64,000 nt of DNA, taken from contig NZ_ADKM02000080.1 in NCBI RefSeq assembly GCF_000178155.2, positions 1-64,000 of the forward strand, read 5' to 3'. A program made the position numbers and the translations under genes. A model generated the notes under the pieces. The model was not told where the DNA came from. It searched no databases and worked only from the letters and a program-made list of their open reading frames with translations. This DNA comes from Hominimerdicola alba 8. Lineage in GTDB: Bacteria; Bacillota; Clostridia; Oscillospirales; Ruminococcaceae. This document shows positions 26,673 through 41,233 of this stretch, piece by piece. Position 1 is the stretch's first letter. Every line of letters starts with the position of its first letter.

Positions 26673-26909
26673 TGTGTACAATAAAAGAATGCGGAAAAGA
26701 CAAATAAAACTATGCCGCGAAAGAAATGGATACACCTTTAACCTATTTTTCCTAAATTATTACAATGTTAAGATCATCATGGCTGTGCTGTGGTGGTCTT
26801 TTCATTTGTGTCCGGTAGTTAGAAATATCTAATGTGTACAAAATCATCAGCTGTGAAAATAATTTTTTGGCTTTGCAAACGAATTATTGTAAACTAAAAA
26901 TGAAATCTC

Positions 26910-26940
26910 TTGACTTGATGGTTAGGTTGTGCTAATATTA
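26910..26940 (+). promoter_or_regulatory. Promoter with DtxR/IdeR-like box for the iron operon
   Basis: TTGACT (26910-26915) and TAATAT (26933-26938) are 17 bp apart. TTAGGTTGTGCTAATATTA (26922-26940), which resembles the consensus bound by DtxR/IdeR-type iron repressors, overlaps the spacer and -10. Binding would block the promoter when iron is plentiful. Confidence 0.6.
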
Positions 26941-26971
26941 ATGACGGTTAGTGAGAACAAATAAAATTCAG

Positions 26972-26998
26972 AAAAAGTTGGCTTTGTGCCGACTTTTT
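26972..26998 (+). terminator. Leader hairpin/terminator of the iron operon
   Basis: AAAAAGTTGGC (26972-26982) pairs with GCCGACTTTTT (26988-26998) with one G-U pair and ends in U. It lies between the promoter and the first gene, so it could end a short leader or attenuate the operon. Confidence 0.6.
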
Positions 26999-27014
26999 GT
27001 ATTTTATGGCAAAG

Positions 27015-27032
27015 TTAGCTTAGGTAAACTAA
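27015..27032. promoter_or_regulatory. Second DtxR/IdeR-like operator
   Basis: TTAGCTTAGGTAAACTAA is an interrupted palindrome (14 of 18 positions symmetric) close to the TTAGGTTAG-CTAACCTAA consensus of iron-dependent DtxR-family repressors. It is 63 bp ahead of the iron permease start. Confidence 0.62.
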
Positions 27033-27094
27033 GTTAAACATGCCAAACACTAACAGACAGAAGGCATTCAGCCTCAGTGGGAGGAAAAAGGATA

Positions 27095-28726
27095 ATGTAT
27101 CATAAAAAGACGGCATTTGGCAGGTTGCTGCCGTTACTGACGGCATTGATGCTGGCACTTTTCAGCACAGGTATCATCGCTTTTGCGTCAACTGATTACT
27201 ACCCCTCTTGGGAGGAATACAAGGCGGCGGGTCAGCCTGCCAATACATGGAACGATGTGGCGGATTCCATCGATAAGCTGATGGAAGCATCATATCAGCT
27301 GTATTCGCGGGGCAATACCGAAGAAGCATACACGCCTATACTCAACGCCTACAATTTCTATTATGAAACATCGGGCTTTGAAAGAAATGTCAACGGTTAT
27401 TCGGGTTCGGAAGTCAGCAAGGCTGAACTTGCTTTCAAGACGGCGCGAAAGGCTGTCAAAAAAGGCGAGGATATCGAAAAGATAAAATCGAACTTCAATG
27501 ACCTCAGCGCGATACTTCACGGTCAGGCTAATCACCTTGATGGTCTGGGTGACAGCGGTGGGTCAAAGCTGACATTCGGTGAGGGCGGTGCTGCTTCAGA
27601 AACGGCATCGACTACAGAGAATGCTGCACAGACTGCTTCGGCTGAAACACCTGCGGCAAACAGCGGCTCATCACCGCTCGGCAGCGGCGGCACGAATGTC
27701 TGGGTGACTTTTGCGAGCTGCTTCGCGATAATCCTGCGTGAGGGTCTTGAAGCGATACTTGTTGTCGGCGCGATAATCGCATATCTTGTGAAATCGGGCA
27801 ACAAGGATAAGCTGAAACACGTTTATATCGGCTGTGTTGCGGCTATCGGCGCAAGTTTCCTGTGTGCATGGCTGCTTAGTCTGCTTAAGCTGGCAAACAC
27901 CGCAAATCAGGAAATAATCGAGGGTGTTACCGCGCTGACTGCTGTGCTGGTGCTGTTCTATGTTAGCAACTGGATGGTTTCCAAAGCGGAAGCTGATACA
28001 TGGAACAAGTACATAGATGAACAGGTGAAAGTATCTGCTGAAACAGGCAGTGTGTTCACTCTGGCATTTACTGCGTTCCTTGCGGTGTTCCGTGAAGGTG
28101 CTGAGGTAATACTCTTCTACCAGCCTTTGCTCAACGATGCTAAGAGCATGAGTTATGTCTGGGGCGGCTTCGGCGTGGGTGTCGTGGTACTGGCTGTCGT
28201 GTTCCTGTGCATCAGATTCTTAAGTGTGAAACTGCCTATAAGACCATTCTTTCTCGGTACCAGCATACTGATGTTCATTATGTCCATATCTTTCTTGGGC
28301 GCGGGCATCAAGGAACTTATCGAGGGCGATGTCATCGACATGACTTCACCCGAATGGCTACAGGCTATCATACCGTTCAACGATGTGCTGAACGTACTTG
28401 GTATCTATCCTGTGCTTGAAACGCTGATACCTCAGCTGATACTGATATTTGTAACGCTGATGATATTCGTTATGCAGAAGTTTGGTACCAAAAACAAGAA
28501 CGAAGCCGGCATACTCGCAATTGTCTTCGGCGGTGTTGGCGGACATAAGTTCTATCTGGGCAAATACGGTCAGGGACTTGTCTGCGTGGCATTCTGCTGG
28601 AGTGGTATACCCGAACTGCTGGGCATCATACAGGGCATACATTACCTGACTGAAACGACCGAACAGTTTGAAGCGGAGATCGCACCCAAAAAGAAAACGC
28701 CTAAGAAAAAGGCGGCAAAGAAATAG
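27095..28726 (+). CDS. FTR1-family iron permease fused to a TM2 domain
   Basis: A 543-residue permease. ATG 27095 is used because GGGAGGA lies 11 bases upstream; an in-frame GTG at 27077 overlaps that site. A signal peptide precedes an extracellular helical domain (about 30-150) and an Ser/Ala/Glu linker. The permease part carries both iron-passage motifs, REGLE (about 215-219) and REGAE (333-337), among seven helices. Unusually, the chain continues with a TM2 domain (GGVGGHKFYLGKYGQGLVC) and a Lys-rich end. It leads an operon like the Campylobacter p19 iron locus, with iron-repressor boxes upstream. Confidence 0.9.
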   Translation: MYHKKTAFGRLLPLLTALMLALFSTGIIAFASTDYYPSWEEYKAAGQPANTWNDVADSIDKLMEASYQLYSRGNTEEAYTPILNAYNFYYETSGFERNVNGYSGSEVSKAELAFKTARKAVKKGEDIEKIKSNFNDLSAILHGQANHLDGLGDSGGSKLTFGEGGAASETASTTENAAQTASAETPAANSGSSPLGSGGTNVWVTFASCFAIILREGLEAILVVGAIIAYLVKSGNKDKLKHVYIGCVAAIGASFLCAWLLSLLKLANTANQEIIEGVTALTAVLVLFYVSNWMVSKAEADTWNKYIDEQVKVSAETGSVFTLAFTAFLAVFREGAEVILFYQPLLNDAKSMSYVWGGFGVGVVVLAVVFLCIRFLSVKLPIRPFFLGTSILMFIMSISFLGAGIKELIEGDVIDMTSPEWLQAIIPFNDVLNVLGIYPVLETLIPQLILIFVTLMIFVMQKFGTKNKNEAGILAIVFGGVGGHKFYLGKYGQGLVCVAFCWSGIPELLGIIQGIHYLTETTEQFEAEIAPKKKTPKKKAAKK

Positions 28727-28795
28727 TCTACTATATCCCGCATACAGGGTAAATATAATAGAGCAACCAAGTCATATCTTAAGGAGGAATTTTTC

Positions 28796-29473
28796 ATGAC
28801 TAAGAAGAAGTTAGTCGGCATCGCACTGGCATCTATGATGGCAATAAGCCTCGCAGCATGCGGCGACACCGATACAAGCAGCACTGCTGAGAGCAAGGCT
28901 GCTGCAAGCAATGCTGAAACAACTGCTGCTGAGAGCGAAAAGAGCGAGGGCACAGATGCAGTCGTTGAGGACACCCCTGCTGCTGATGACGGCGCTGCAG
29001 GCTTCACCGAGTATCCTATCTTTGAGGACGAGGAAGTTGGTTTCCTGAACGTTTCTGCTGTTTACTTCCAGCCTGTTCCGATGTCTAACGGCAACGAGAA
29101 GGTAGACGGTTTCAACATTCACCTTGAGGCTGACGTTTCCGCACTGGAGAACGATCTGGGCTTCGGTGTTGGTGACTGGGTACCTTACATGACCGTTGAC
29201 TACAAGATCACCGGTTCTGACGGAAATGTTGCTGCTGAGGGTACTTTCATGGTAATGTCCGCTTCTGACGGTCCTCACTACGGTGCTAACGTAGCTCTGC
29301 CTGATGCAGATACCTACAGCATCGAGTTCCAGTTCCACAATCCTGAAGAGAACGGTTACCTGCTGCACACCGATGCAGAAACAGGTCCCGGTGGTAATTT
29401 CGATGAGTACTTCAAGGACGGCAACCTGAAGGTTACATTTGATGGTTGGGATTACGTCCCTCAGGAGTGGTAA
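28796..29473 (+). CDS. P19/Tp34-type iron-binding lipoprotein
   Basis: A 225-residue lipoprotein with lipobox SLAAC (Cys 22), an acidic Ser/Ala/Glu linker and a C-terminal Fe2+-transport domain (about 70-225) of the P19/Tp34 family. His and Met expected in the copper/iron sites are seen in NIHLEADVSA, FMVMSASDGPHYG and EFQFHNPEE. P19 partners FTR1 in Campylobacter and pathogenic E. coli (FetMP). GGAGG is 8 bases before the ATG; codon use is more biased than in the neighbours, consistent with high expression. Confidence 0.88.
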   Translation: MTKKKLVGIALASMMAISLAACGDTDTSSTAESKAAASNAETTAAESEKSEGTDAVVEDTPAADDGAAGFTEYPIFEDEEVGFLNVSAVYFQPVPMSNGNEKVDGFNIHLEADVSALENDLGFGVGDWVPYMTVDYKITGSDGNVAAEGTFMVMSASDGPHYGANVALPDADTYSIEFQFHNPEENGYLLHTDAETGPGGNFDEYFKDGNLKVTFDGWDYVPQEW

Positions 29474-29510
29474 TTTTACATCGGTAAATTTCCTTCAAAC
29501 AAAAATACTC

Positions 29511-29541
29511 TATGCGCTGCAGAAAATGTCTACAGCGCATA
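29511..29541 (+). terminator. Intercistronic hairpin
   Basis: TATGCGCTG (29511-29519) pairs with CAGCGCATA (29533-29541). No U-run follows, so it may lower readthrough or protect the upstream mRNA and thereby favour the lipoprotein. Confidence 0.5.
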
Positions 29542-29610
29542 TTGTGCGTTTGTGAAGTTAACAATGGTTAATCCAGGTTAACGAAAATATCCTCTGAAAG
29601 GAGAAACTCT

Positions 29611-30885
29611 GTGTTAAAATATTTTGTGATGACCGTAGAAACGCTGGTGCTGGCGGCTGTGCTGACAGGCGCTCTGCGGGGCTTCATCAAACTGATAAAA
29701 GAGCGTTTCGGCGCTTATGCAGGCGGGATAGGCGCAGGTGTCGGTTTCGTGGCGGCGGCAGTCATGGCTTTCATGAAAAATGCCACCACCAAAATAGATA
29801 CCTCGCTGTGGAACCTGCGCATATTCACTGTGACGATAATACTTTCGCTGCTGCTGATAATAATTTCCATATTCCGCAAAAACAAGGTCATGGGGGCGAT
29901 AAGCTGTGTGTTTGGCGGAGTTGTCGCGGCACTGCTGATATTTTATGCACTGCCCGATGTGCTGGCGTACCCGTACATTATCCTGCTGACAGAAAAATCG
30001 GTGCTGTCAACTGGCTTTTTGTTCAAGTGCATCGGCATAATCTTCGGTCTGATACTTATGGTCGTGGCACAGATGGCTGTACATAACGGCATGCTGAGGC
30101 TTTCGGGCTGGCAGGCTTATGCCGTTACAGCGGCGTTACTCCTTATCAACGCCGCAAGACAGTTCTGCGCAAGTCTGGGCATAATGCTCAACAAGCGCAT
30201 GCTTGAAAACTTCGACCCTGACACCAAGCACAGTATTTTTGAACTGGTCAAATTTTCCTCCAATAACAGCAATATATTCGTTTATGCGGCAATTATCTCG
30301 GCTCTGGTGATGCCTGTACTGCTCTGGATAAAGAGTCTGCGTGCTGACGAACCTTACGACAATCCCGCGCAGAAGCGCAAACTGCGCAAAAAGTGGCGCG
30401 TTACCAGAACATGGGCTAACCTCGCGATATTCTGCCTTGTTTTTGGAATGGTGACATTCACCACCCTCGATGCGGTGGCTAACAGGGAAGTTCCTCTGTC
30501 GCCTGTAGAAGATGCCAAGATCGAGAACGGCTATGTGATAGTACCGTTTGAACAGGTCGATGACGGTCACCTGCACCGCTTTGCTTATGTGACCGAGAAC
30601 GATATACAGATACGCTTTATAGTCATAAAAAAGCCGAATTCTTCGGCTTACGGCATCGGTCTTGATGCCTGTGATGTCTGCGGTGAAACAGGCTATTTTG
30701 AGAAAGACGGTCAGGTGGTGTGCAAGCTGTGCGATGTTGTCATGAATATTCAGACCATCGGCTTCAAGGGCGGCTGCAACCCGATTGTCATACCTTATGA
30801 GATACGTGACGGACAGATATTCGTGCCGCTGGACGGTCTGACCGAGCACGAAAAGATGTTCAAGAACAACCGAATGAGAAGCTGA
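29611..30885 (+). CDS. DUF2318 membrane protein of the P19 iron system
   Basis: A 424-residue protein with eight or so membrane helices (first 330 residues) and a C-terminal DUF2318 domain with two cysteine pairs: CDVCGETGYF and CKLCDVVMN, then GFKGGCNPI. DUF2318 proteins follow P19 genes in Campylobacter and elsewhere, and the cysteines may hold a metal or an iron-sulfur centre used in reductive iron release. The start is a GTG with AAAGGAG upstream. The first permease gene follows after 11 bases. Confidence 0.88.
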   Translation: MLKYFVMTVETLVLAAVLTGALRGFIKLIKERFGAYAGGIGAGVGFVAAAVMAFMKNATTKIDTSLWNLRIFTVTIILSLLLIIISIFRKNKVMGAISCVFGGVVAALLIFYALPDVLAYPYIILLTEKSVLSTGFLFKCIGIIFGLILMVVAQMAVHNGMLRLSGWQAYAVTAALLLINAARQFCASLGIMLNKRMLENFDPDTKHSIFELVKFSSNNSNIFVYAAIISALVMPVLLWIKSLRADEPYDNPAQKRKLRKKWRVTRTWANLAIFCLVFGMVTFTTLDAVANREVPLSPVEDAKIENGYVIVPFEQVDDGHLHRFAYVTENDIQIRFIVIKKPNSSAYGIGLDACDVCGETGYFEKDGQVVCKLCDVVMNIQTIGFKGGCNPIVIPYEIRDGQIFVPLDGLTEHEKMFKNNRMRS

Positions 30886-30896
30886 GGAGGGGCAGT

Positions 30897-32189
30897 ATGT
30901 TCTTTAGAATGATACGCGGGACACTGTTCCGCCAGTGGAAAAAAATGCTGATGATAGCCTTTACCATAGCGCTGGGCGCATCGCTCGCATCGGCTATGCT
31001 GAGCGTTATGCTCGATGTGGGCGACAAGGTAAATCAGGAACTTAAAACTTACGGTGCTAACATAACCGTTGTACCGAAGGAAAATTCGGTGCTGACAAAC
31101 CTATATGAGGTCGAGGACGGCGGCGTGAGCGGCGCTTATTTGCAGGAAGATGAACTGGGCAAGATAAAGACCATCTTCTGGGCATTCAATATCGTGGATT
31201 TTGCGCCGTTCGTCAATGTTGATGCGACACTTGACGACGGCACTGAAGTGCAGTGTGTGGGAAGCTGGTTCGACCACCACATGGACTTGCCCACAGGTGA
31301 AACTCTTGATGCAGGCGTTGTCAGTCTGCGAAGCTGGTGGGAACTGACAGAAGGTTCGTGGTTAGATGAACAGCTTTCTGCCAACTGCGCCGATGAAGTG
31401 ATGGTCGGTAAAGACCTTGCCGAAAAGCTGGGCGTTAAGGCGGGCGACACGCTCCATCTGAACGGTCCCGCATCTGACAAAAATATGAAAGTTGCGGGCA
31501 TATACGATGCGGGCGGCACTGAGGATATGCAGATATACATGCAGCTCGACACAGCGCAGGCGCTTGCCGACCTTGAGGGCAGGGTAGACAAGATAGAAGT
31601 CAGCGCACTGACAACTCCCGAAAACGAACTTTCGGAGCGTGCGGCAAAAGACCCGTCATCGCTGACAGTGGCGCAGATGGAAACATGGACATGCACCGCT
31701 TATGCAAGTTCGATATGCTATCAGATACAGCAGGTCATCACCGATTCGGTAGCCGCCCCCGTAAGGCAGGTAGCTGACTCGGAGGGTGCTATACTCAGCA
31801 AGACACAGCTTTTGATGATACTGATAACCATACTCAGCCTGATAGGTGCGGCGCTGGGTATATGCAATCTGGTAACGGCAAGCGTTATGGAGAGAAGTCA
31901 GGAGATAGGTCTGATGAAAGCGATAGGTGCGCATAACCTGTCGGTGGCACTGCTGGTGCTGTGCGAGATATTCATAACAGCGATAATCGGCGGTGTTGCG
32001 GGCTTCTTTGCGGGATTTGGCTTTGCACAGCTGATAGGTCACACGGTATTCGGTTCAGCGATAGAGATGCGACCGATGGTAGTGCCGATAGTTGCGGTGC
32101 TGGTGGTGCTGGTGACGCTGATAGGCTCGATACCCGCCATAAGAATGCTGCTGGGTCTGCGCCCGACAGAAGTTCTTCACGGCAGATAA
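30897..32189 (+). CDS. FtsX-like permease of the P19 operon (first)
   Basis: A 430-residue MacB/FtsX-type permease: N-terminal helix (about 15-40) with ALGASLASAML, extracellular MacB-like core (about 50-290), then three helices (305-425) bearing EIGLMKAIGAHNLSVALLVL, the coupling segment. GAGGGG precedes the ATG. Campylobacter has two such permeases at the same place after the DUF2318 gene. Confidence 0.92.
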   Translation: MFFRMIRGTLFRQWKKMLMIAFTIALGASLASAMLSVMLDVGDKVNQELKTYGANITVVPKENSVLTNLYEVEDGGVSGAYLQEDELGKIKTIFWAFNIVDFAPFVNVDATLDDGTEVQCVGSWFDHHMDLPTGETLDAGVVSLRSWWELTEGSWLDEQLSANCADEVMVGKDLAEKLGVKAGDTLHLNGPASDKNMKVAGIYDAGGTEDMQIYMQLDTAQALADLEGRVDKIEVSALTTPENELSERAAKDPSSLTVAQMETWTCTAYASSICYQIQQVITDSVAAPVRQVADSEGAILSKTQLLMILITILSLIGAALGICNLVTASVMERSQEIGLMKAIGAHNLSVALLVLCEIFITAIIGGVAGFFAGFGFAQLIGHTVFGSAIEMRPMVVPIVAVLVVLVTLIGSIPAIRMLLGLRPTEVLHGR

Positions 32190-32207
32190 GAGCGGAGGCA
32201 AAGTAAA

Positions 32208-33377
32208 ATGAAAAAGAGAAAAATGTTCATACGCATGATAACAGCCTCGCTTATGCGGCGGCGTTCGCGAATGGTCGTGGCGCTTCTGTCCATAGCCATC
32301 GGCGCGACCATACTTTCGGGGCTGGTGTCGATATATTACGATGTACCAAGACAGATGGGCGCTGAGTTCAGAAACTACGGCGCTAACATGATATTCACTG
32401 CGGGCGATGATGCTTTCACCTTAGACGATGTGCGTGCGGGGCAGTCGAAGATTGACAGCACGCAGATAGTGGGCGTTGCGCCTTACCGCTACGAGAACGT
32501 GAGGATAAACGATATCCCTGTCGTTGCGGCAGGCACCGACCCTGAGGGCGCTAAAAAAGCAAGCCCTTACTGGAGGGTCGAGGGCGAGTGGTTCACTGGT
32601 GACAGTCAGCTTCTTATCGGTGCTTCGGTAGCAGAGTCGTTCAGGCTGAAAGCGGGCGACACCATAGAGGTTTCTTACAGCCCCGTGTCAGAGAACGATG
32701 AAACGACTTCTGACGGCGAGGACGAGTTCGTTCTTGACACCTACAAGCCTTTCACGGTAATGGGCGTTTTGCAGACAGGCGGCTCGGAAGAGAACTACAT
32801 CTACATGAGCCTTGATGCACTGACTGAACTTACGGGCGAAGAGGGTACTCTCGATGTGGCAGAACTGAGCGTTTCTGCCGATGCCGAACAGCTGGCGGGG
32901 TATATCAGCGAGATAAACGGCAGTGTTAAGAACGTGCATGCAAGTCTTGTAAAGCGCGTGACCGCATCGGAAGCTACAGTGCTTACCAAATTGCAGGCTT
33001 TGGTGCTTCTGGTCACTATAGTCGTGCTGGCGCTGACGATGATATGCGTTGCTACGACCATGACAGCAGTCGTGGCAGAGCGCCGCAAGGAGATAGGTCT
33101 GCGCAAGGCGATAGGCGCATCTGACAAGAGCATAATACAGGAATTTATGGGCGAGAGCATGCTTCTGGGTCTGCTGGGCGGACTTCTCGGCGCGGTGCTG
33201 GGCTTTGTGTTCGCACAACAGGTCAGCATCAATGTGTTCAGCAGTTCGATATCGTTCAGACCGCTTCTTCTGCCGATAACAGTGCTGGCTTCCATAGCGG
33301 TAACAGGCATATCGAGCCTTATGCCCATAAGAAGCGCAACAGATGTTGATCCCGCAATTGTCCTCAAAGGAGAGTAG
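32208..33377 (+). CDS. FtsX-like permease of the P19 operon (second)
   Basis: A 389-residue permease paralogous to the preceding one; both start with a basic N-terminus, GATILSGLVSIYYD as first helix end and ...YGAN (N/M). The C-terminal helices contain EIGLRKAIGASDKSIIQEFM. GAGCGGAGG-like sequence precedes the ATG, and the 18-base gap shows cotranscription. The two permeases probably form a heterodimer driven by the ATPase at 33772. Confidence 0.92.
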   Translation: MKKRKMFIRMITASLMRRRSRMVVALLSIAIGATILSGLVSIYYDVPRQMGAEFRNYGANMIFTAGDDAFTLDDVRAGQSKIDSTQIVGVAPYRYENVRINDIPVVAAGTDPEGAKKASPYWRVEGEWFTGDSQLLIGASVAESFRLKAGDTIEVSYSPVSENDETTSDGEDEFVLDTYKPFTVMGVLQTGGSEENYIYMSLDALTELTGEEGTLDVAELSVSADAEQLAGYISEINGSVKNVHASLVKRVTASEATVLTKLQALVLLVTIVVLALTMICVATTMTAVVAERRKEIGLRKAIGASDKSIIQEFMGESMLLGLLGGLLGAVLGFVFAQQVSINVFSSSISFRPLLLPITVLASIAVTGISSLMPIRSATDVDPAIVLKGE

Positions 33378-33393
33378 TGGTTAATTCATAATC

Positions 33394-33552
33394 GTGGTTA
33401 TCCCGCTGACACACCGCCAAAACGGCGGTTTTACAGAACTTAAGGCGGTTGGCGTATATCTTTCCCCCGCCGCAGGCGGGGGAAAGATATGGGGCGCTCA
33501 ATTATCCTTTTGTTTACAGCATTTTCAGCCGGTGTGCTAAAGGGATAGTCAT
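33394..33552. mobile_element. MITE family 2, copy 4 (about 159 bp)
   Basis: GTGGTTATCCCGCTGACACA to GGATAGTCAT, with ATTCATAAT on both sides (9 bp). It holds an extra GC-rich hairpin, CTTTCCCCCGCC/GGCGGGGGAAAG at about 33460-33487. It separates the second permease gene from its ATPase gene within the operon. Confidence 0.8.
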
Positions 33553-33771
33553 ATTCATAATTTAAAATTCATAATTGTTGACATGGGCGAAAGTTCTGCG
33601 TTTTGTCGGCAGGGTGGGGGCACTCACCTATTGATACTTGCGAACGTGCGGACAAAGTGTCAAGCCTAACGTGCAAAATGTCCAGCATTACATCAGCAAA
33701 GCTGAAGTTTGGGGTGTGGGGGAGCATTGACTGTGTTGAATGCGTGTCCCCATTTAAGATAGGAGTTTAAA
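33553..33771. other. Intergenic region inside the iron operon
   Basis: 219 bases without an ORF. ATTCATAATTGTTG and CATGGGCGA are shared with 36010-36040. AGGAGTTTAAA just before 33772 is the ribosome site of the ATPase gene. Confidence 0.5.
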
Positions 33772-34461
33772 ATGAGTTTATTGGAACTTAAGAATGTTTA
33801 TAAGATCTATGGTGATCTTCATGCGCTCGATGATGTGAGCCTGAAGGTCGAAAAGGGCGAGTGGGTGTCTATAATGGGACCATCAGGCTCTGGCAAAAGT
33901 ACGATGATGAATATTATCGGGTGCATGGATAAGCCCAGCAAGGGCGAAGTTCTGCTGGACGGTGTGGATATATCAAAGGAGTCGAAGAAGAACCTGACCA
34001 ATATCCGCAGGGACAAGATAGGGCTTATCTTCCAGCAGTTCCATCTGGTAAATTACCTGACAGCGGTTGAGAATGTCATGCTGGCACAGTATTATCACAG
34101 CATACCTGATGAAAAGGAAGCACTCGAAGCGCTGGACAGAGTTGGTCTGGCAGACAGGGCAAAGCATCTGCCCAGTCAGCTTTCGGGCGGTGAACAGCAG
34201 CGTGTGTGCGTGGCAAGGGCGCTGATAAATTATCCTGAGATAGTCCTGGCTGACGAGCCGACAGGCAACCTCGATGAAGCTAACGAAGAGGTCGTTGTTG
34301 ACCTGTTCCACAAACTGCATGACGATGGTACGACGCTGATAGTAGTCACCCATGACCCTGAGGTCGCTGAGGTCGCACAGCGCACGCTGGTGCTGAGAAG
34401 CGGCAAACTCAGCAAAGAGGTGGTCAACGAGAACTTCACAGGAAAGATAAGATTCGACTAG
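33772..34461 (+). CDS. ABC transporter ATP-binding protein of the P19 operon
   Basis: A 229-residue ATPase with Walker A GPSGSGKST, FQQFHL as Q-loop, LSGGEQQRVCVARAL, Walker B VLADEPTGNLD and VVTHDPE. It pairs with the two FtsX permeases upstream. In the Campylobacter p19 locus the ATPase also follows the permeases. Transported molecule unknown; movement of a reduced or chelated iron-related factor is the usual guess. Confidence 0.93.
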   Translation: MSLLELKNVYKIYGDLHALDDVSLKVEKGEWVSIMGPSGSGKSTMMNIIGCMDKPSKGEVLLDGVDISKESKKNLTNIRRDKIGLIFQQFHLVNYLTAVENVMLAQYYHSIPDEKEALEALDRVGLADRAKHLPSQLSGGEQQRVCVARALINYPEIVLADEPTGNLDEANEEVVVDLFHKLHDDGTTLIVVTHDPEVAEVAQRTLVLRSGKLSKEVVNENFTGKIRFD

Positions 34462-34477
34462 AGCGGAGGGATTTCTT

Positions 34478-34915
34478 ATGAAAAAGCTGATGATAGCAGT
34501 TTCGGTGCTGGTGCTGACAGCGGGTCTGACCGCATGCGGTAGCAAGTCTTACAAGGACGGCACATACAAGGCTAAAAGTGCCGAATATCACAGCGATGAC
34601 GGTACAGAAGAGGGCAACGGCTACGGAGAGGTCGAGCTGACCATATCGGGCGGAAAAATAACAGAATGCACTTTCAAGACCTACGAACTTGACGGAACTT
34701 ACAAAGACGAGAACTACGGCAAGGAAGACGGCGAGATAAAGAACAAGGACTATTACAGCAAGGCACAGCGTGCGAGGGCGGCTTGCGAGAATTATTCTTC
34801 TCAGCTGGTGTCAAAAGGCGATATAGACGAGGTCGATGGCGTGAGCGGTGCTACTGTCAACTACAATGAGTTCAAGGAGGCTGTTACTGCGGCTTTGAAG
34901 CAGGCAGAGGAATAA
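34478..34915 (+). CDS. FMN-binding-domain lipoprotein (flavinylatable)
   Basis: A 145-residue lipoprotein with lipobox LTAC (Cys 20). The FMN_bind fold starts at KDGTYKA and ends with DGVSGATVN (residues 120-128), the motif whose Thr receives covalent FMN from an ApbE transferase. No apbE is in the window. Flavinylated proteins of this kind pass electrons across or outside the membrane. It starts 16 bases after the ATPase stop and overlaps the next gene by one base, so it belongs to the iron operon. Confidence 0.9.
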   Translation: MKKLMIAVSVLVLTAGLTACGSKSYKDGTYKAKSAEYHSDDGTEEGNGYGEVELTISGGKITECTFKTYELDGTYKDENYGKEDGEIKNKDYYSKAQRARAACENYSSQLVSKGDIDEVDGVSGATVNYNEFKEAVTAALKQAEE

Positions 34916-35433
34916 TGCGGGTACTGCGTCATGTCATCGTTACAGCGGCGGCGCTGTTTCTGATGCTCGGTCTGCCGTTTCTTAACAGTGACTATTACAA
35001 GCGTCTGCGCGGCGGCACTGACGCTGTGTCAAGTGCGTCCACTGCGCTTGACAAGCCGTCTGGTGAGTATGTGGTGTTCATAAACCGAAGCCTGCATACC
35101 AACAGCGCAAATCTCGCGGCGTGGGAGGGTTTCTTTGCTGAGGGCAGGGACGAAGAACTTTACACCGTCTTTGAGGACTTAAGCTGTACCGTAGCCGATA
35201 ATGACGCGGCGGGGCTTGAAATGGCAAAGAGTTTCCAGTCGATACTTCCCGAAAATCAGATGAAAGTCAGCACCGAAAATGTGATGCTGATGCTTTCAAA
35301 AGCAGAAAACGGGCGGTTCGATGTGATAGTGATGTCAAAGGAGATAGCTGACATGTTCGGTGCAGAACGCATAGCGGCGATGACTGACGCAGATATGCTG
35401 ACCGTAAAACAGGCTGAGGAGGAAGAAGCGTGA
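34915..35433 (+). CDS. Membrane-anchored protein of the iron/redox operon, unknown
   Basis: A 172-residue protein with one N-terminal membrane helix (about 5-22) and an extracytoplasmic domain containing SGEYVVFINRSLHTNS, EELYTVFEDLSCTVADND and VMLMLSKAENGRFDVIVMSK. It has no haem or cysteine motif. TAATG overlap with the FMN-binding gene and GTGA overlap with the cytochrome-like gene indicate tight coupling. I do not recognise a family; it may hold the redox partners together. Confidence 0.75.
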   Translation: MRVLRHVIVTAAALFLMLGLPFLNSDYYKRLRGGTDAVSSASTALDKPSGEYVVFINRSLHTNSANLAAWEGFFAEGRDEELYTVFEDLSCTVADNDAAGLEMAKSFQSILPENQMKVSTENVMLMLSKAENGRFDVIVMSKEIADMFGAERIAAMTDADMLTVKQAEEEEA

Positions 35434-35978
35434 GAAGAGCAAACGCAGTAATAAGCATGCTGATACTGGCGCTTTTCCTTTTTCATGGAGTAGTGGGCGG
35501 ATTTCAGCTGGCGGGCGTTATGGAGGGCGGCAATGTTGTGATGCAGGTACTCGCATACGTAATGACGGCGCTGATAGTTATTCACCTTATCATCGGCACA
35601 AAGCTGACTGTTGACACGGTAACAGCCATGAAAAAGTCGGGGACGCACTATTATAAGGAGAACAGGCTGTTCTGGCTGAGAAGAGTCAGCGGATTTGCGG
35701 TAATGATATTCATAGCGTTCCACATACTGCTTTTTCTGGGGAAAAATGACGGTGTTTATCGCCTGAGTTTTTTCGGCGGCTTACAGCTGGCGACACAGAT
35801 ACTTATGGTCATCTCTATCGCGGTGCATGTGATAAGCAACGCAAAGCCGATGCTGCTCAGCTTCGGCACGAAGTCGTATAAAGAACTGGGTATCGACCTT
35901 GCAATGATATTATCGGGCATACTGCTGTTCACAGGGGTGTGCTTTGTGATATATTATTTCAGGTGGAAGATGATATAA
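35430..35978 (+). CDS. Cytochrome b-like membrane subunit (SdhC/FrdC-like)
   Basis: A 182-residue protein of five membrane helices with His positions suited to haem: FHGVVGG, VIHLIIG, IAFHILLF and AVHVISN. FWLRRVSGFAVMIFIAFHI resembles the (W)xxRxSG...H helix of succinate dehydrogenase/fumarate reductase cytochromes. Start GTG overlaps the previous stop. The flavoprotein and iron-sulfur subunits follow, so it probably anchors that complex and exchanges electrons with quinone or with the flavin lipoprotein. Confidence 0.7.
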   Translation: MRRANAVISMLILALFLFHGVVGGFQLAGVMEGGNVVMQVLAYVMTALIVIHLIIGTKLTVDTVTAMKKSGTHYYKENRLFWLRRVSGFAVMIFIAFHILLFLGKNDGVYRLSFFGGLQLATQILMVISIAVHVISNAKPMLLSFGTKSYKELGIDLAMILSGILLFTGVCFVIYYFRWKMI

Positions 35979-36032
35979 TGGCGCTTTTTTAATTCATAAT
36001 TCATAATTCACAATTCATAATTGTTGGCATGG

Positions 36033-36081
36033 GCGATAGTTTGCCGTTCTGCCGCAAGCGGGTAAGAACGGCAATTATCGC
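36033..36081 (+). other. Long hairpin ahead of the flavoprotein gene
   Basis: GCGATA-(gt)-TTGCCGTTCT (36033-36050) pairs with AGAACGGCAA-T-TATCGC (36065-36081). No U-run follows. It lies 100 bp ahead of the flavoprotein start, and the surrounding 35979-36181 is otherwise non-coding. Confidence 0.6.
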
Positions 36082-36181
36082 GGTGGGCGGTCATCGCTTA
36101 ACCGCGTAAACAGGCGTTTGTGACGAATTTTGACGGGTTGACGAAATGTACTGTCAGTTATTGGAGAAGGTTGAACGGCTT

Positions 36182-37729
36182 ATGGAAAAGACTATCATTA
36201 TCGGTGCGGGGCTTTCGGGGCTGACGGCGGCCATCACCCTTGCGAGGGGCGGGCGGCACTGTTTGCTGGTGTCACTGCAAGCCTCAGAAAGGGCGCAGTC
36301 GGTGCTTGCTGAGGGCGGCATCAATGCGGCGCTGGACGTTATGGGCGAGGGCGACAGTCCGCAGTACCATTTTGAAGATACCATGAAAGGCGGGGTTTAC
36401 CTCGCTGATGAAAACGCTGTCAGGCGGCTGACTAAGGGTGCGCCCGAAGTCGTGAGGTGGCTGGCGGGGCTTGGTGTGCCTTTCAACATGGCTGAGGGTC
36501 ATCTCGTTCAGCGAAATTTCGGCGGGCAGAAGAAGAAGCGAACCGCTTACGCCAAAAGCAGTACAGGCAAGATGATAATGTCGGCGCTGATAGATGAAGC
36601 GCGAAAGTACGAAGCATCGGGGCTTATCGAGCGTTTCCCGCACCACGAGTTCATTGAAGCCGTTATTGAGGACGGCGTATGTAAAGGGGCGGTGGTGCGC
36701 GACTGCTACACCGACAAGTCTGCGGTGATGCGGGGGAAAGTGATAATGTGCTGCGGCGGAATGGCGGGGCTTTTCCCTAATATGACCACAGGCACGACAC
36801 AAAACAGCGGATATGCGGCGGCAAAGCTGTTTGAACAGGGGGTCATCTTCGGCAACACGGAGATGCTCCAGTACCACCCGACTACCATCGGCATACCCGA
36901 CAAGCGCTGTCTTGTCACCGAAGCGGCACGCGGCGAGGGCGGCAGGCTGTACATCGAGAGAAATGGCGAGAAGTGGTATTTCATGGAAGAAAAATATCCC
37001 GAACTGAAAAACCTGATGCCCCGCGATGTTGTGTCGCGTGAGATGTATTTTGTAAGGCGGCGGGAGGACTGCGGCGACACGGTATATCTGGATATGACAG
37101 GGCTTTCTGCCGAGATATGGCAAAAGCGTCTGCCCGACCTGCGCGCCGAGATAATACACTATCTCGCCATCGACCCCGCTGAAAAGCCTGTGCCTGTCCA
37201 TGAGGGGATACACTATTTCATGGGCGGCATCTACACCGATATTAATCACCGCACCAATATCAGCGGGCTGTATGCGGCGGGCGAGTGTACCTGCCAGTAT
37301 CACGGTGCTAACCGTCTGGGCGGAAATTCGATGCTTGGCGCGGTCTTCGGCGGAAAGACTGCCGCTGAGGATATACTTGCGAGGGGCGAGAACGGTAATT
37401 CGGGCGAAACAGAGTTTTCAGGGGAATGCCATGCCGATGAACCGAGCGAAGCAGTCAGAAAAGAACTGGGCGAAATATTGTACTCAGGGCTGGGCATAGT
37501 CAGGAGCGAAGCGGGTATCGACTCAGCCATAGCAAGGCTTGATGCACTTGAAAAGCGCGAGGGCATCTACCCGCGAACAAGGCTGGGACGGTCGATGCTT
37601 ATGTCTGCAAAAGCCCGAAAAGAGAGTCGAGGTGCCCATTACCGCGAGGATCACCCCGACAAGGACGAAAGCCTGCGTGCGCCTACTTTATCGTGGTGCG
37701 AGGACGGCGAAGTCAGGGTGAGGATATAG
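36182..37729 (+). CDS. Fumarate reductase/succinate dehydrogenase-like flavoprotein
   Basis: A 515-residue FAD protein. ATG 36182 is chosen: the dinucleotide motif IIIGAGLSGLTAA begins at once and GGAGAAGG lies 11 bases upstream. Catalytic segments are conserved: QYHPTTI, LVTEAARGEGGRL, RDVVSREM (active Arg), HYFMGGIYTD and GECTCQYHGANRLGGNSML. The His that usually carries covalent FAD (R-S-H-T/S in SdhA) is Gln here (RAQSVLAEGG, Gln 39), so FAD should be non-covalent. L-aspartate oxidase is the nearest alternative, but no nadA or nadC is nearby and the iron-sulfur gene follows. Confidence 0.85.
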   Translation: MEKTIIIGAGLSGLTAAITLARGGRHCLLVSLQASERAQSVLAEGGINAALDVMGEGDSPQYHFEDTMKGGVYLADENAVRRLTKGAPEVVRWLAGLGVPFNMAEGHLVQRNFGGQKKKRTAYAKSSTGKMIMSALIDEARKYEASGLIERFPHHEFIEAVIEDGVCKGAVVRDCYTDKSAVMRGKVIMCCGGMAGLFPNMTTGTTQNSGYAAAKLFEQGVIFGNTEMLQYHPTTIGIPDKRCLVTEAARGEGGRLYIERNGEKWYFMEEKYPELKNLMPRDVVSREMYFVRRREDCGDTVYLDMTGLSAEIWQKRLPDLRAEIIHYLAIDPAEKPVPVHEGIHYFMGGIYTDINHRTNISGLYAAGECTCQYHGANRLGGNSMLGAVFGGKTAAEDILARGENGNSGETEFSGECHADEPSEAVRKELGEILYSGLGIVRSEAGIDSAIARLDALEKREGIYPRTRLGRSMLMSAKARKESRGAHYREDHPDKDESLRAPTLSWCEDGEVRVRI

Positions 37730-37801
37730 TTTTTCTTTATGACCTGAATGAACTGTCAAAAAATTACTTTAGACTTTGAAAAATGTCGGCAGTGATGTAC
37801 A

Positions 37802-37830
37802 TTGACTTTATTGCCTTGCTGTGATATAAT
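37802..37830 (+). promoter_or_regulatory. Promoter of the iron-sulfur subunit gene
   Basis: TTGACT (37802-37807) and TATAAT (37825-37830), 17 bp apart, lie between the flavoprotein and iron-sulfur genes, so the latter can be expressed separately. Confidence 0.72.
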
Positions 37831-37914
37831 TCCTATAAAGCAGAGTAGAATTATATGATATTTTCAGCGAGGACGGTAAAAATGCCTGAAACAGGAAGAA
37901 AGGGAGTGAATGCG

Positions 37915-38631
37915 ATGACCACCGAACTGAAAATTCTCAGGCGTGAAAGCGCACAGTCGGAAGCGTACCGGCAGAGTTTCATATTTGAAACTGAGGACGA
38001 AAACGCCGCTGTTTCCACTGCGCTGACTGCCTTAAATGCACGCGATGACCTTAAAGATAAGGACGGCAAGCCTGCAAAGCCCATAAGATGGGAGTGCAGC
38101 TGCCTGCAAAAGAAGTGCGGAGCATGCGCGATGGTCATTAACGGCAGTCCGCGACTTGCCTGTGACAGCAAGCTGAAAGAACTCGGCAGTGTTGTGACGG
38201 TCGAGCCGCTGAGGAAATTCCCTGTGGTGGCTGACCTTATCGTTGACCGCAAGGTGATGTTCGACAGCCTGCGAGAGATGTCGGTATGGCTGAAAAGTGA
38301 ACTTACACCCGATGAAAATACGCAGGATATCGCTTACGAAGCATCGGGCTGTTTGCAGTGCGGGTGCTGTCTGGATGTCTGCCCGAACTTCTATGCGGGC
38401 GGCAAATTTGTCGGCATGGCGGGCGGTGTGCCCGTTTCGCGGCTGATAGAACAGCTTCCGAAAGATGAGAAGAGCGAGATCCTCAAAGAATACCGCAAAA
38501 GGGTCTATGAGGGGTGCGGCAAATCGCTGGCGTGCAGAAAGATCTGTCCTGCGGGGCTTGATATCGAGAAACTGCTGGTAAATTCAAACGCCGCTTCTGT
38601 ATGGAAGTCGCTGTTTTGGCGGAAAAAGTGA
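37915..38631 (+). CDS. SdhB/FrdB-like iron-sulfur subunit
   Basis: A 238-residue protein with an N-terminal plant-type [2Fe-2S] domain (CSCLQKKCGAC with a further Cys in LACDSK) and a C-terminal ferredoxin domain with CLQCGCCLDVCP and CGKSLACRKICP. ATG 37915 has AGGGAG upstream; an upstream in-frame ATG does not. It would carry electrons between the flavoprotein and the cytochrome-like subunit. The order cytochrome, flavoprotein, iron-sulfur matches sdhCAB/frdCAB operons. Confidence 0.9.
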   Translation: MTTELKILRRESAQSEAYRQSFIFETEDENAAVSTALTALNARDDLKDKDGKPAKPIRWECSCLQKKCGACAMVINGSPRLACDSKLKELGSVVTVEPLRKFPVVADLIVDRKVMFDSLREMSVWLKSELTPDENTQDIAYEASGCLQCGCCLDVCPNFYAGGKFVGMAGGVPVSRLIEQLPKDEKSEILKEYRKRVYEGCGKSLACRKICPAGLDIEKLLVNSNAASVWKSLFWRKK

Positions 38632-39527
38632 ACAGGCTGGGGCTTTGGCTGTTCGCGGCGGTCTATGTTGGGGTGACTGCCTGCGGGCTGACGCTGGCGG
38701 TGAGGGCAACTCAGCCGCGTTATCACTACGAGGTCAGGCAAGACCTTAGCGTACATTTTGACAACGCCGATAAGGTCATTGAGAAAGTGCGCTCACGCCT
38801 GAAAGAGCGGCAGAAAGTCATTCGCATAACCTACAGTGCCAAAAACAGCAGTCTTGATGATACTGACAAGCTGGTGCGTGAACTGATGCAGTTCGCCTGC
38901 GCCGAAACTGACTGTCCTGATGAGGGCGATTATATAGGCTGTCAGTTAGGTGGTTATAATTCTGCTTTCACCGAAGAAAGATCCGATGATGGGCATAAGA
39001 ATGTCATCGAGATAACGCCGATATATTTTACCGATGCCGCGCAGGAGTTTGAAACCGATGATGCTGTCAGAGAGGTCATAGAAAGTCTGGGGCTTTCTGA
39101 TGATGCGGCTGATGAAGAGAAAGTCAGCGCAGTATATGAATGGGTCTGCGATAACGTGCAGTATGACCATATCCACCGCCGAAATGACAGCTACCGACTG
39201 CGGTCGGCGGCTTACGGGGCACTGGTCTACAGGCGAGCGACCTGCATGGGCTATGCGGTGACGGTATACCGTCTTTTGCGGGAACTGGGTGTAGGCTGTC
39301 GGGTCATAACAGGTGATGCAGCGGGTGAGTACCACGCATGGAACATCGTCTGTATTGACGGTGAGTGGTACAACGCTGATGCCACATGGGATTCTATGGG
39401 CGGCGGAAGAGCGAACTATCTGAAAAGTGACAGTGACTTCGGTGACCACGTAAGGGAAGAGAAGTTTGAAACAGCCGAGTTTCGGGCGCAGTACCCGATG
39501 GCTGTCACAAGTCTGAAAGGAAAGTAA
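38628..39527 (+). CDS. Membrane-anchored transglutaminase-like protein
   Basis: About 299 residues if started at the GTG that overlaps the previous stop (GTGA); an ATG at 38601 would add nine residues. One N-terminal helix (RLGLWLFAAVYVGVTACGLT) anchors an extracellular domain. The transglutaminase-like triad is intact: Cys in RRATCMGYAVTVYRLL, His in EYHAWNIV and Asp in NADATWD. Such proteins are usually proteases or cross-linkers at the envelope. It is followed by DUF4418 and a MacB-like exporter, which may form a separate envelope unit. Confidence 0.85.
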   Translation: MNRLGLWLFAAVYVGVTACGLTLAVRATQPRYHYEVRQDLSVHFDNADKVIEKVRSRLKERQKVIRITYSAKNSSLDDTDKLVRELMQFACAETDCPDEGDYIGCQLGGYNSAFTEERSDDGHKNVIEITPIYFTDAAQEFETDDAVREVIESLGLSDDAADEEKVSAVYEWVCDNVQYDHIHRRNDSYRLRSAAYGALVYRRATCMGYAVTVYRLLRELGVGCRVITGDAAGEYHAWNIVCIDGEWYNADATWDSMGGGRANYLKSDSDFGDHVREEKFETAEFRAQYPMAVTSLKGK

Positions 39528-39533
39528 TGTAAA

Positions 39534-39938
39534 ATGAAGAGAAAAGCTATTGAATGGATATTGGGAGTTCTGCTTCTGGGGTGCAGTCTTTGCCTCAGCG
39601 TTGGTGTAAAGCTGGTGTTCCACGCCTGCGGACCGATGGAGGACGGCAAGTGGATGACCTGCCACTGGGCTGAACAGGCTGTACTGGTCATCGGCGGTGT
39701 TATGACTGTCATATCTTTGCTGGTACTGTTTGTGACCAGCGGCGGCATGCGCAGGGGTCTGGCGCTTGCACTGGCACCTCTTGGGATAGGCGCGGCACTT
39801 ATACCCAACATTATGATAAAACTCTGCATGATGTCTGACATGAGATGTCATTCAGTGATGAAGCCCGCAGTTATCATATTCGGCTTAGCGGCGGCAGTAC
39901 TGGGTGCTGTTTACGCACTGGTCGGCAAAAAAGACTGA
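39534..39938 (+). CDS. DUF4418 membrane protein
   Basis: A 134-residue, four-helix membrane protein with conserved cysteine segments VFHACGPMEDGKWMTCHWAE and MMSDMRCHSVM, typical of DUF4418. Known members sit immediately ahead of FtsX-type permease/ATPase pairs, as here. The paired cysteines on the outer face suggest metal binding or disulfide redox chemistry; function unproven. Confidence 0.85.
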   Translation: MKRKAIEWILGVLLLGCSLCLSVGVKLVFHACGPMEDGKWMTCHWAEQAVLVIGGVMTVISLLVLFVTSGGMRRGLALALAPLGIGAALIPNIMIKLCMMSDMRCHSVMKPAVIIFGLAAAVLGAVYALVGKKD

Positions 39939-40036: not shown

Positions 40037-41233
40037 ATGAAAAGTCTGGCAATAAAAAATCTTAAGGGCAGACCTGTGCGCACCGCTGTGCTGATGGTGC
40101 TTGCGGCACTGCTGAGTTTCACGGCGCTGGGCGGCACACTGGTGGTCGCAAGTCTTGGCAAGGGTCTTGATTCACTGAAAGCGCGGCTTGGTGCAGATGT
40201 GATGGTCGTGCCGAGAGAAGCCACCATGAAAAAGAAGTTCGAGGATATCGTATTGCAGGGAAGCACAGGCTATTTTTATATGAGTTCTGCACTTGCCGAT
40301 GAAGTGATACAGCGTGAGGGCGTTGGGCAGGTGTCGCCGCAGTTTTTTCTGGCTTCAACAGGTTCAAGCTGTTGTTCGATACCTGTACAGATAATCGGAT
40401 TTGACCCCGATACCGACTTCACTGTAAGTCCCTGGATAAAGCGTACTTACGGCGGTGAACTGGGCAAATACGACATCGTGGCAGGCAGTGACCTAAATGC
40501 TTTTGTGGGCGATAAGCTGAGTTTCTACGGCGTTGAATGCACCGTTGCCGCAAAGCTGGAAAAGACAGGCACTACCTACGATACAACGGTCTTCACCAAT
40601 AAGGATACCATAACTGCGCTGATACAGTCGTCACTGGACAAGGGCATGAACGATTTCAACGACACTGACCCTGAACATTCTGTTTCCTGCCTGATGATAA
40701 ATGCGGCTGATGGCACTTCACCCGAAGAACTGGTAAACGACATAAATATCCACTGCAAAAAGGTCAGGGCTTTTAGGTCGGGCGACATGATAAGCGGTAT
40801 CGCCGGAAGCCTTAGCGGTGTTTCGCAGATGATACGACTGCTTATCGCGGCGGTATGGGTGCTGGGCATAGTGATACTTCTGCTGGCATTCACCATGAGC
40901 GTAAACGAGCGCAAAAAGGAGTTCGCGGTACTTCGGGTAATGGGTGCATCGCGGGCAAAGCTGGCGGGGCTGGTGCTTAAAGAAGCACTCTGCACCTGTC
41001 TGGGCGGCAGTCTTATAGGCGCTGTTGTCGGACTGCTGGTGCTTCTGCCTTTCAACGGCGTTATCGAAAAGACACTTGCTCTGCCGTTTCTTCTGCCGAA
41101 TGCGGGAAGCATAACGGGCTTTGCCATAGCAGCTGTTGCCCTTTCGGTAATATCGGGTGCAGCGGCGGCGGCAGTCAGTGCATGGCGGGTCAGCCGCATC
41201 GACACGGGGCTTATTCTTAGGGGGGACAACTGA
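40037..41233 (+). CDS. FtsX-like permease of the DUF4418 cluster
   Basis: A 398-residue permease with N-terminal helix (VLMVLAALLSFTALGGTLVV), an extracellular MacB core that includes SADEVIQREGVGQVSPQFFL-like sequence, and three C-terminal helices around KEFAVLRVMGASRAKLAGL. It shares GADVMVVPREAT with the YGANITVVPKE type of the P19-operon permeases, so these belong to one subfamily. The ATPase gene starts at its last base. Confidence 0.9.
   Translation: MKSLAIKNLKGRPVRTAVLMVLAALLSFTALGGTLVVASLGKGLDSLKARLGADVMVVPREATMKKKFEDIVLQGSTGYFYMSSALADEVIQREGVGQVSPQFFLASTGSSCCSIPVQIIGFDPDTDFTVSPWIKRTYGGELGKYDIVAGSDLNAFVGDKLSFYGVECTVAAKLEKTGTTYDTTVFTNKDTITALIQSSLDKGMNDFNDTDPEHSVSCLMINAADGTSPEELVNDINIHCKKVRAFRSGDMISGIAGSLSGVSQMIRLLIAAVWVLGIVILLLAFTMSVNERKKEFAVLRVMGASRAKLAGLVLKEALCTCLGGSLIGAVVGLLVLLPFNGVIEKTLALPFLLPNAGSITGFAIAAVALSVISGAAAAAVSAWRVSRIDTGLILRGDN

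Follow-up and report, generated by a model that had tools for sequence, protein, structure and literature searches.

A P19-type iron importer gene cluster of Hominimerdicola alba 8 with an embedded fumarate reductase-like block: a possible electron route from iron to fumarate

The electron handling of P19-type iron importers is described as undefined in the published work consulted. A gene cluster of Hominimerdicola alba 8 (Bacillota; Ruminococcaceae) bears on this question, as the genes of such an importer are followed in it by those of a fumarate reductase-like enzyme. The stretch analyzed here (positions 1 to 64,000 of contig NZ_ADKM02000080.1; hereafter, the window) belongs to a 4.05-Mb assembly (GCF_000178155.2) that is 98.8% complete. 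An earlier note, made from the DNA letters alone, had listed 11 genes at this locus, encoding an FTR1 permease, P19, a DUF2318 protein, two FtsX permeases, an ATPase, a flavinylatable lipoprotein, an anchored protein (X), a cytochrome b-like protein (CYB), and the subunits FrdA and FrdB, and all 11 were found intact, on one strand, and in that order at 27077 to 38631 (open reading frames [ORFs] plus Pfam; Table 1). What does a redox enzyme do within an iron importer operon, and in which direction would its electrons run? Our preferred answer, to which we assign a probability of about 0.4, is that a P19-type importer operon holds an inserted four-gene, probably quinone-independent fumarate reductase, with electrons flowing inward to fumarate.

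Composition of the two halves

Judged by gene content and conserved residues, the first six genes constitute a P19-type iron importer. The REG-E motif of the FTR1 iron permease is kept in 48 of 50 relatives; residues H109, E111, M152, M154, H161, and H191 of P19 are conserved in at least 95% of 50 rows, and the window P19 matches solved P19/FtrA structures; the FtrD-like (DUF2318) protein has conserved C354, C357, C371, C374, and C389. We take the P19 metal-site residues and the REGxE motif of FTR1 to act as ligands and, in the Bifidobacterium breve cluster compared below, BfeO to be P19 and SifA to be the FtrD-like protein. The likely start codon of FTR1 is the ATG at 27095, which is preceded by GGAGG. 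The seventh gene encodes an FMN_bind lipoprotein, the strict flavinylation motif of which recurs in 57 of 61 relatives, the four misses being two DLVTGAT, one EAISGAT, and one mis-extracted row (L085). The apbE gene that the earlier note proposed to look for was found elsewhere in the genome, in one copy with a lipoprotein-like signal. The locus thus combines the two features of gram-positive P19-FMN clusters, i.e., an FMN_bind lipoprotein with a flavinylation motif in the seventh position and apbE in the genome.

The second half consists of X, CYB, FrdA, and FrdB. FrdA aligns with complex II flavoproteins, and its top NCBIfam model is SdhA (414 bits, versus 324 for PRK07512), although it scores below the curated cutoff of all the NCBIfam models displayed (25 of 47). 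Residues H244, T247, E259, R262, R293, H356, and R390, which are in or next to the substrate site, do not vary among the 79 readable rows (2 of the 81 aligned rows are gapped at the checked positions), and in the same 79 rows Gln51 replaces the histidine of covalent FAD attachment; the roles of the dicarboxylate-site residues are presumed. An assignment as L-aspartate oxidase NadB was rejected on the basis of the bit scores and the existence of a separate NadB-like gene, which lies near a nadC-like gene (a label from sequence reading) and is the sole other FrdA-like match in the genome. In FrdB, three sets of cysteines (C83, C88, C91, and C103; C166, C169, C172, and C231; C176, C221, and C227), which we assign to the 2Fe-2S, 4Fe-4S, and 3Fe-4S clusters on the presumed Escherichia coli pattern, are conserved in at least 95% of 73 rows, as is C171.

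Neither X nor CYB matched a Pfam or NCBIfam model at E 0.01, and both were modeled with AF2 as single chains. CYB has five predicted helices (pLDDT 89.9) and four histidines (H19, H52, H98, and H133) that are invariant in 46 sequences. Its top ten Foldseek matches are all membrane subunits of Sdh or Frd (best E 1.4e-3), and the sequence profile gave a weak match to 6lum_D only (E 0.17). CYB is therefore probably a divergent complex II anchor and a diheme cytochrome b; its assignment to some other class of membrane electron carrier was rejected, given the lack of a Pfam match and a fold that points to complex II.

X is predicted to have one membrane pass; next to it on the outer side is a disordered stretch that carries DAVSSAS, and then comes an alpha/beta domain (pLDDT 84.5) that resembles half of a type-2 solute-binding protein. 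Its best match is PDB entry 3noh (RUMGNA_00914 of Ruminococcus gnavus) in fold (E 5e-6) and also, weakly, in sequence (E 3e-4). The family DUF6921 (PF21914) matches the X protein of locus L126 (E 1e-64) and scores slightly below the cutoff for that of L101 (23.6 versus 26 bits); the window X has no match to it at E 0.01. A loose motif, D[AGSVTP][VILQNE][STA]x[AP][ST], which was set after viewing the sequences, occurs in 67 of 69 complete X proteins (the incomplete L058 is excluded) versus 5 of 763 other cluster proteins, and a stricter form, with G or S in the fifth position, in 49 of 69 versus 1 of 763. Two X proteins (L028 and L080) carry DAVSGAT, a form also found in FMN lipoproteins of the cluster, and those of relatives without iron genes read DVLSGAT (L012) or DAVTGAT (L126 and L127). 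It is a good guess from these motifs that X is flavinylated beside the membrane. X as an FMN_bind domain was rejected, as there is no Pfam match and the fold differs.

Similar motifs were seen in other surroundings. A multi-helix protein with a C-terminal FMN_bind domain lies beside a surface-type DAITSAT protein (L125, contig C97, 7291 to 8850 and 9183 to 10700), and a 967-amino-acid secreted-looking protein with Shr-like heme-binding domains, a dockerin, and DAVSSAT (L013, contig C75, 3286 to 6189) is located about 3.4 kb from the sole apbE gene (L013, 9614 to 10657). Additional surface proteins that are flavinylated may be recognizable by the X-like motif.

Table 1. Coordinates of the cluster, its upstream region, and its downstream companions in the window
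Feature	Position	Strand	Basis or remark
Upstream region of FTR1, probable metal-regulator operators	26815-27076	+	TTAG-N6-CTAA at 26819 and 26922; longer-spaced near 27015
FTR1/EfeU-type iron permease with C-terminal TM2 domain	27077-28726	+	PF03239 E 1.5e-22; PF05154
P19/FtrA lipoprotein, iron/copper-binding protein	28796-29473	+	PF10634 E 2.3e-42
FtrD-like membrane protein (DUF2318), FetA equivalent	29611-30885	+	PF10080 E 4.3e-29
FtsX/MacB-like permease 1, FetB equivalent	30897-32189	+	PF02687 (FtsX E 7e-16); PF12704
FtsX/MacB-like permease 2, FetC equivalent	32208-33377	+	PF02687 E 6e-21; PF12704
ABC ATPase, MacB/LolD type, FetD equivalent	33772-34461	+	ABC_tran E 1.5e-35
FMN_bind lipoprotein, flavinylation motif DGVSGATVN	34478-34915	+	PF04205 E 9e-9
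X, single-pass anchored protein	34915-35433	+	No Pfam/NCBIfam match; AF2 and 3noh match
CYB, probable five-helix cytochrome b-like anchor, complex II type	35430-35978	+	AF2, Foldseek, conserved His
FrdA/SdhA-type flavoprotein	36146-37729	+	FAD_binding_2 E 1e-80
FrdB/SdhB-type iron-sulfur subunit, likely start 37915	37855-38631	+	Fer2_3 E 7e-23; TIGR00384 above cutoff
Transglutaminase-like protein, overlaps frdB	38601-39527	+	PF01841 E 1.8e-15
DUF4418 membrane protein	39534-39938	+	PF14387 E 9e-28
MacB/FtsX-like permease accompanying P19 clusters	40037-41233	+	PF02687 E 1e-17
ABC ATPase (LolD-like) accompanying P19 clusters	41233-41904	+	PF00005 E 2.8e-34

Linkage of the two halves in relatives

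The loci compared were the best 80 of 315 FrdA relatives, which two FrdA peptides had detected and which were ranked by similarity, and close relatives are over-represented among them; the closest public relative found at the locus is a metagenome-assembled Ruminococcus (L024), with a FrdA that is 96% identical. According to tblastn, 60 of the 80 loci are linked to iron-cluster genes (49 with P19, 2 with FTR1 or FtrD, and 9 with FtsX genes before the contig end), 8 are unlinked, and 12 were too short. Unlinked here describes the locus only, with none of FTR1, P19, FtrD, and FtsX in approximately 5 to 10 kb upstream or in the sequenced downstream part. The complete 11-gene order was found in 45 of the 80 loci, many others being cut by contig ends, and its recurrence exceeds chance. 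Catonella morbi ATCC 51271 (L101), a record with a culture-collection number, carries the cluster. In L064, which is linked, the Frd block is placed before FTR1, and L098, which is unlinked, still carries DUF4418, MacB, and LolD ahead of X. A plasmid search for FrdA relatives yielded 14 records, all with <60% identity, the five listed being at 31 to 37%.

Presence and absence were counted at three taxonomic ranks. Within the genus, 9 of 29 genomes have P19, and the same 9 have CYB (hypergeometric 1e-7, kinship ignored). Besides the window genome, five of the nine were fetched and are joint. In G786, both genes lie on one contig about 6 kb apart; in G783 and G793, P19 and CYB are on separate contigs of fragmented assemblies. 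Among 396 genomes of the order, 6 have P19, 5 have CYB, and 4 have both, in one cluster (hypergeometric P of 7e-8, kinship ignored). The remainder are two P19 genomes without CYB, G122 (in which the cluster extends as far as the FMN gene) and G379 (in which a P19-like gene stands alone), and a CYB genome without P19, G299. Among 392 genomes of the class, P19 was found in seven and CYB in six (three weak matches), and both only in the window genome. The joint unit is thus conserved among close relatives, in which the separation that the earlier note had named as contrary evidence was not the rule; across the wider class, the halves are mostly apart.

Beyond frdB, the conserved cluster continues with four genes that the earlier note did not include. 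The first encodes a transglutaminase-like protein, which has a plus-strand match in 56 of the 80 loci (a few of these matches lie upstream of FTR1); the others encode DUF4418, a MacB/FtsX-like permease, and an ABC ATPase. Among the 60 linked loci, 42 have X-CYB-FrdA-FrdB placed after the FMN gene and ahead of one or more of DUF4418, MacB, and LolD on the same strand; in the remaining loci, these companions stand before FrdA (5 loci), stand after it on the other strand (2 loci), or are missing from the available sequence (11 loci, of which 9 have <4 kb of sequence left). All three Frd-free P19 clusters examined (L131, L132, and L133, from 3 of 6 such genomes of the class sample) have DUF4418, the MacB-like permease, and the LolD-like ATPase, directly after the FMN gene in L131 and L133 and, in L132, with DUF4418 and LolD before FTR1 and MacB after FMN. 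Since the flanking FMN and DUF4418/MacB/LolD genes also accompany P19 when Frd is lacking, the block appears to have been inserted within the importer cluster and not merely beside it.

The genes are also closely packed. Median spacings, which are influenced by automatic start codons, are 16 nt (ABC-FMN), 10 nt (FMN-X), -2.5 nt (X-CYB), 11 nt (CYB-FrdA), and -11 nt (FrdA-FrdB). One-base overlaps had been reported across 34915 to 35433, which is correct for FMN and X, and X and CYB overlap by 4 bases. The window has two long gaps, at 33378 to 33771 (FtsX2-ABC) and 35979 to 36145 (CYB-FrdA), each of which contains one copy of a 56-nt repeat (84%; 33553 to 33608 and 35999 to 36054). These distances are ≤60 nt in 49 of 58 and 72 of 79 relatives, respectively; L024 shares the two large gaps with the window, unlike most other relatives.

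The 300 nt that precede FTR1 contain a palindrome, TTAG-N(4-14)-CTAA, in 41 of 50 cases (the window and 49 loci), compared with a mean of 3.7 and a maximum of 10 in 200 first-order random versions; the regions upstream of X, CYB, and FrdA contain it in 0 of 65, 0 of 74, and 1 of 76 cases, respectively. The pattern was picked after looking at the sequences, and in the window alone its count is not above chance. Of 98 occurrences of the exact 6-base-spaced form in the 80 loci, 76 lie <500 nt before FTR1. This form is absent from nine loci without a linked FTR1 (L072, L084, L092, L095, L096, L098, L099, L100, and L102), from L012, L126, and L127, and also from the linked L009 and the P19-only L132 and L133. 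We take the palindrome to resemble DtxR-family boxes; for an exact 19-mer Fur box, the tally was 0 of 50. This distribution suggests one metal-controlled promoter for the whole cluster, with transcription presumably continuing through to the Frd genes.

In a FrdA tree built by a quick method (omitting L037 and L103, which have a wrong automatic start), five loci without iron genes (L128, L129, L012, L126, and L127) are at the base, and the group of 80 rows mixes linked and separated loci, with seven changes of the separated label. The tree is compatible with a free-standing module having been recruited and later separated several times, though it does not establish a single origin. Three of the basal loci have X-CYB-FrdA-FrdB without P19 in other company. 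In L012 (7642 to 12410; G299), a transglutaminase-like gene is nearby. In L126 (7504 to 13610) and L127 (100 to 5978), which are nearly identical though from different families, X belongs to DUF6921 and the block adjoins two genes that, on reading of their sequences, encode a heavy-metal-domain P-type ATPase and an ArsR-like regulator, a possible second link to metals.

Direction of electron flow and competing explanations

Coupling of iron uptake to the redox block is likely, and its direction can be proposed more tentatively. In the inward reading, extracytoplasmic Fe2+ bound by P19 would be oxidized and the FTR1 permease would move the resulting Fe3+; the flavinylated FMN_bind lipoprotein would receive the electrons and hand them to X (probably flavinylated), from which they would reach FrdB and FrdA by way of the CYB hemes and end on cytosolic fumarate, which would take the place of O2 as the sink of a ferroxidase-permease. 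The contact between X and CYB, the exchange of electrons between the halves, and the direction of flow are inferred. Several points favor this direction. Ftr1p is said to move only Fe3+ made in place, and copper-bound FtrA, a member of the P19 family, is reported to oxidize Fe2+ in vitro (PMC11966278); an Fe2+ oxidation step in an anaerobe would need an electron acceptor other than O2. Relatives with noncovalent FAD are said to reduce fumarate without oxidizing succinate, the covalent bond raising the potential of the flavin (PMC9557727, 2022), and with Gln51 in every readable row the window FrdA would be of the fumarate-reducing kind. More tentatively, the cluster would form an anaerobic ferroxidase-permease that combines Fe2+ oxidation by P19, two covalent flavins, a diheme cytochrome, and a quinone-free complex II, in which fumarate reduction helps to drive high-affinity import and X-CYB-FrdAB represents a complex II of a new class, a flavinylated extracytoplasmic subunit standing in for quinone.

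No UbiA-type quinone prenyltransferase (PF01040) was found in the window genome (controls were positive in 14 of 14), so a quinol made by the organism itself is an unlikely donor; quinone from neighboring organisms may be a reactant. Of 44 further genome entries, 35 have no UbiA match and 9 have one, of which 3 are above the cutoff. RnfG as the FMN donor was rejected: only RnfC and RnfD occur together, on contig C107 (L123, 7609 to 9839; an RnfD gene and an RnfC-like gene, labeled from sequence reading, without other recognized Rnf genes), and the three FMN_bind hits of the genome are on other contigs.

Other observations weigh against the inward reading. Of the 69 X proteins, 14 have the glycine of the ApbE motif and 55 lack it, the window X having serine in its place, and the X of the cultured Catonella reads DAVSSPS. 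All nine UbiA-like matches fall among the 33 of 44 entries that carry both halves (as a linked cluster or, in two fragmented assemblies, as both halves; G775 and G797 [L026] are the same genome counted twice, and more duplicates are possible). The Frd block occurs without FTR1, P19, FtrD, or FtsX nearby in 8 of 80 loci (L072, L084, L092, L096, L098, L099, L100, and L102). In the class sample, six of seven P19 genomes lack CYB and five of six CYB genomes lack P19; neither half therefore requires the other, and the joint form is confined to some lineages and is no general rule. Finally, the authors of previous studies prefer a supply of reducing power to its removal (PMC6083913 and PMC10783030), and the lower potential of noncovalent FAD (PMC9557727) would be better matched to a donor more strongly reducing than Fe2+, unless Fe3+ is bound very tightly at the sites.

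The occurrence of iron-free versions also speaks for a rather unlikely alternative, in which the fumarate reductase serves redox balance or succinate formation, receives electrons from another donor via FMN and X, and shares only its conditions of use with the importer, no electrons passing to or from iron. Such versions comprise the eight loci above together with L012 and the nearly identical L126 and L127, and four of them (L084, L092, L099, and L100) show no X. A metabolic role is also conceivable because the only other FrdA-type gene found in the genome is the NadB-like one. This explanation is at odds with the position of the block inside the iron cluster, with the gene overlaps, and with the presence of P19 and CYB in exactly the same genus genomes, and it would be odd for iron starvation to turn on an iron-rich enzyme.

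The same conserved operon and wiring could run outward, as the earlier note proposed, with FrdA, FrdB, and CYB conveying cytosolic electrons to X and the FMN lipoprotein for the reduction of Fe3+ outside the cell and its uptake. The FMN or thioredoxin proteins of P19 clusters have indeed been suggested to supply reduction for uptake (PMC6083913 and PMC8238504). Nevertheless, we consider this direction improbable, as FrdA lacks the covalent-FAD histidine and relatives with noncovalent FAD are said only to reduce fumarate (PMC9557727); Gln51 in all 79 rows speaks against succinate oxidation, and no NAD(P)H-oxidizing protein was recognized among the scanned cluster proteins. The fumarate/succinate couple, with a potential of about +30 mV, would moreover be a weak reductant for Fe3+. 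The proposed tie between a redox chain and iron uptake is thus supported by the joint conserved unit, and ferric reduction as its purpose is disfavored. Least probable is a role of FrdA-FrdB-CYB-X on another unsaturated acid or in the assembly or repair of the importer: many family members have unknown substrates (PMC8238504) and FrdA falls short of the cutoffs of the 25 NCBIfam models shown, but the checked dicarboxylate-site residues are invariant and FrdB has a complete three-cluster set.

Relation to known systems

Literature searches, which covered neither preprints nor most subscription journals, found no description of a joint cluster of a P19 importer and X-CYB-FrdA-FrdB among the titles and abstract openings listed. 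The earlier note was not aware of a description of its whole combination. This holds, in the descriptions consulted, for the combination with the Frd block; the replacement of thioredoxins by an FMN protein is not new and follows the published pattern of gram-positive P19 clusters (PMC6083913 and PMC8238504). Meheust et al. (2021) counted fumarate reductases within two genes around FMN domains (PMC8238504), and the window FrdA, three genes from the FMN gene, lies outside that range; the joint cluster may be listed unremarked in their supplementary tables. Their survey groups P19-FMN clusters with those that lack a core membrane electron-transfer system, and such FMN proteins presumably depend, according to them, on partners encoded elsewhere in the genome (PMC8238504). 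Here, many species, one of them recorded with a culture-collection number (C. morbi ATCC 51271), encode a candidate electron partner within the cluster itself, and the direction of electron flow is therefore directly testable. If the inward model is true, an FTR1 permease could work without O2 and a complex II without the need for quinones. The cluster suggests that in rumen and oral anaerobes a respiratory-type enzyme is connected to iron uptake, fumarate possibly having the role that O2 has in yeast.

As the earlier note recognized, the first six genes have the order of the Campylobacter jejuni P19/FetMP-FetABCDEF system (fetMP-fetABCD; FTR1, P19, DUF2318, two FtsX, and ATPase; PMC10783030). 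The C. jejuni cluster continues with the thioredoxins FetE and FetF, whereas the window continues with the FMN lipoprotein, X, CYB, FrdA, and FrdB. An FMN-binding protein is the seventh gene in Firmicutes, Actinobacteria, and others, and a thioredoxin in most Proteobacteria (Liu et al., 2018; PMC6083913). Gram-positive P19-FMN clusters accordingly share the first six genes and the FMN-binding seventh with the window (PMC6083913 and PMC8238504), and the published descriptions consulted contain no Frd block. A likely example is bfeUO-sifABCDE of B. breve, with an FTR1-like permease, two FtsX permeases, an ATPase, and the FMN-binding SifE, which is induced by iron limitation and needed under that condition (PMC5449479).

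With complex II (Wolinella FrdCAB, Chloroflexus Sdh, and Mycobacterium smegmatis Sdh2), the window set shares the flavoprotein, the three-cluster FrdB, and the five-helix, four-histidine anchor. It differs in a FrdA without the covalent-FAD histidine, in a genome in which no quinone prenyltransferase was found, in the extracytoplasmic X, and in its location in an iron importer operon. In yeast Fet3-Ftr1 and Brucella FtrABCD, the FTR1-family permease is thought to require Fe2+ oxidation (PMC11966278), as proposed here. Unlike those systems, the window cluster contains no recognized multicopper oxidase or cupredoxin, and the proposed sink for the electrons of iron is fumarate, not O2.

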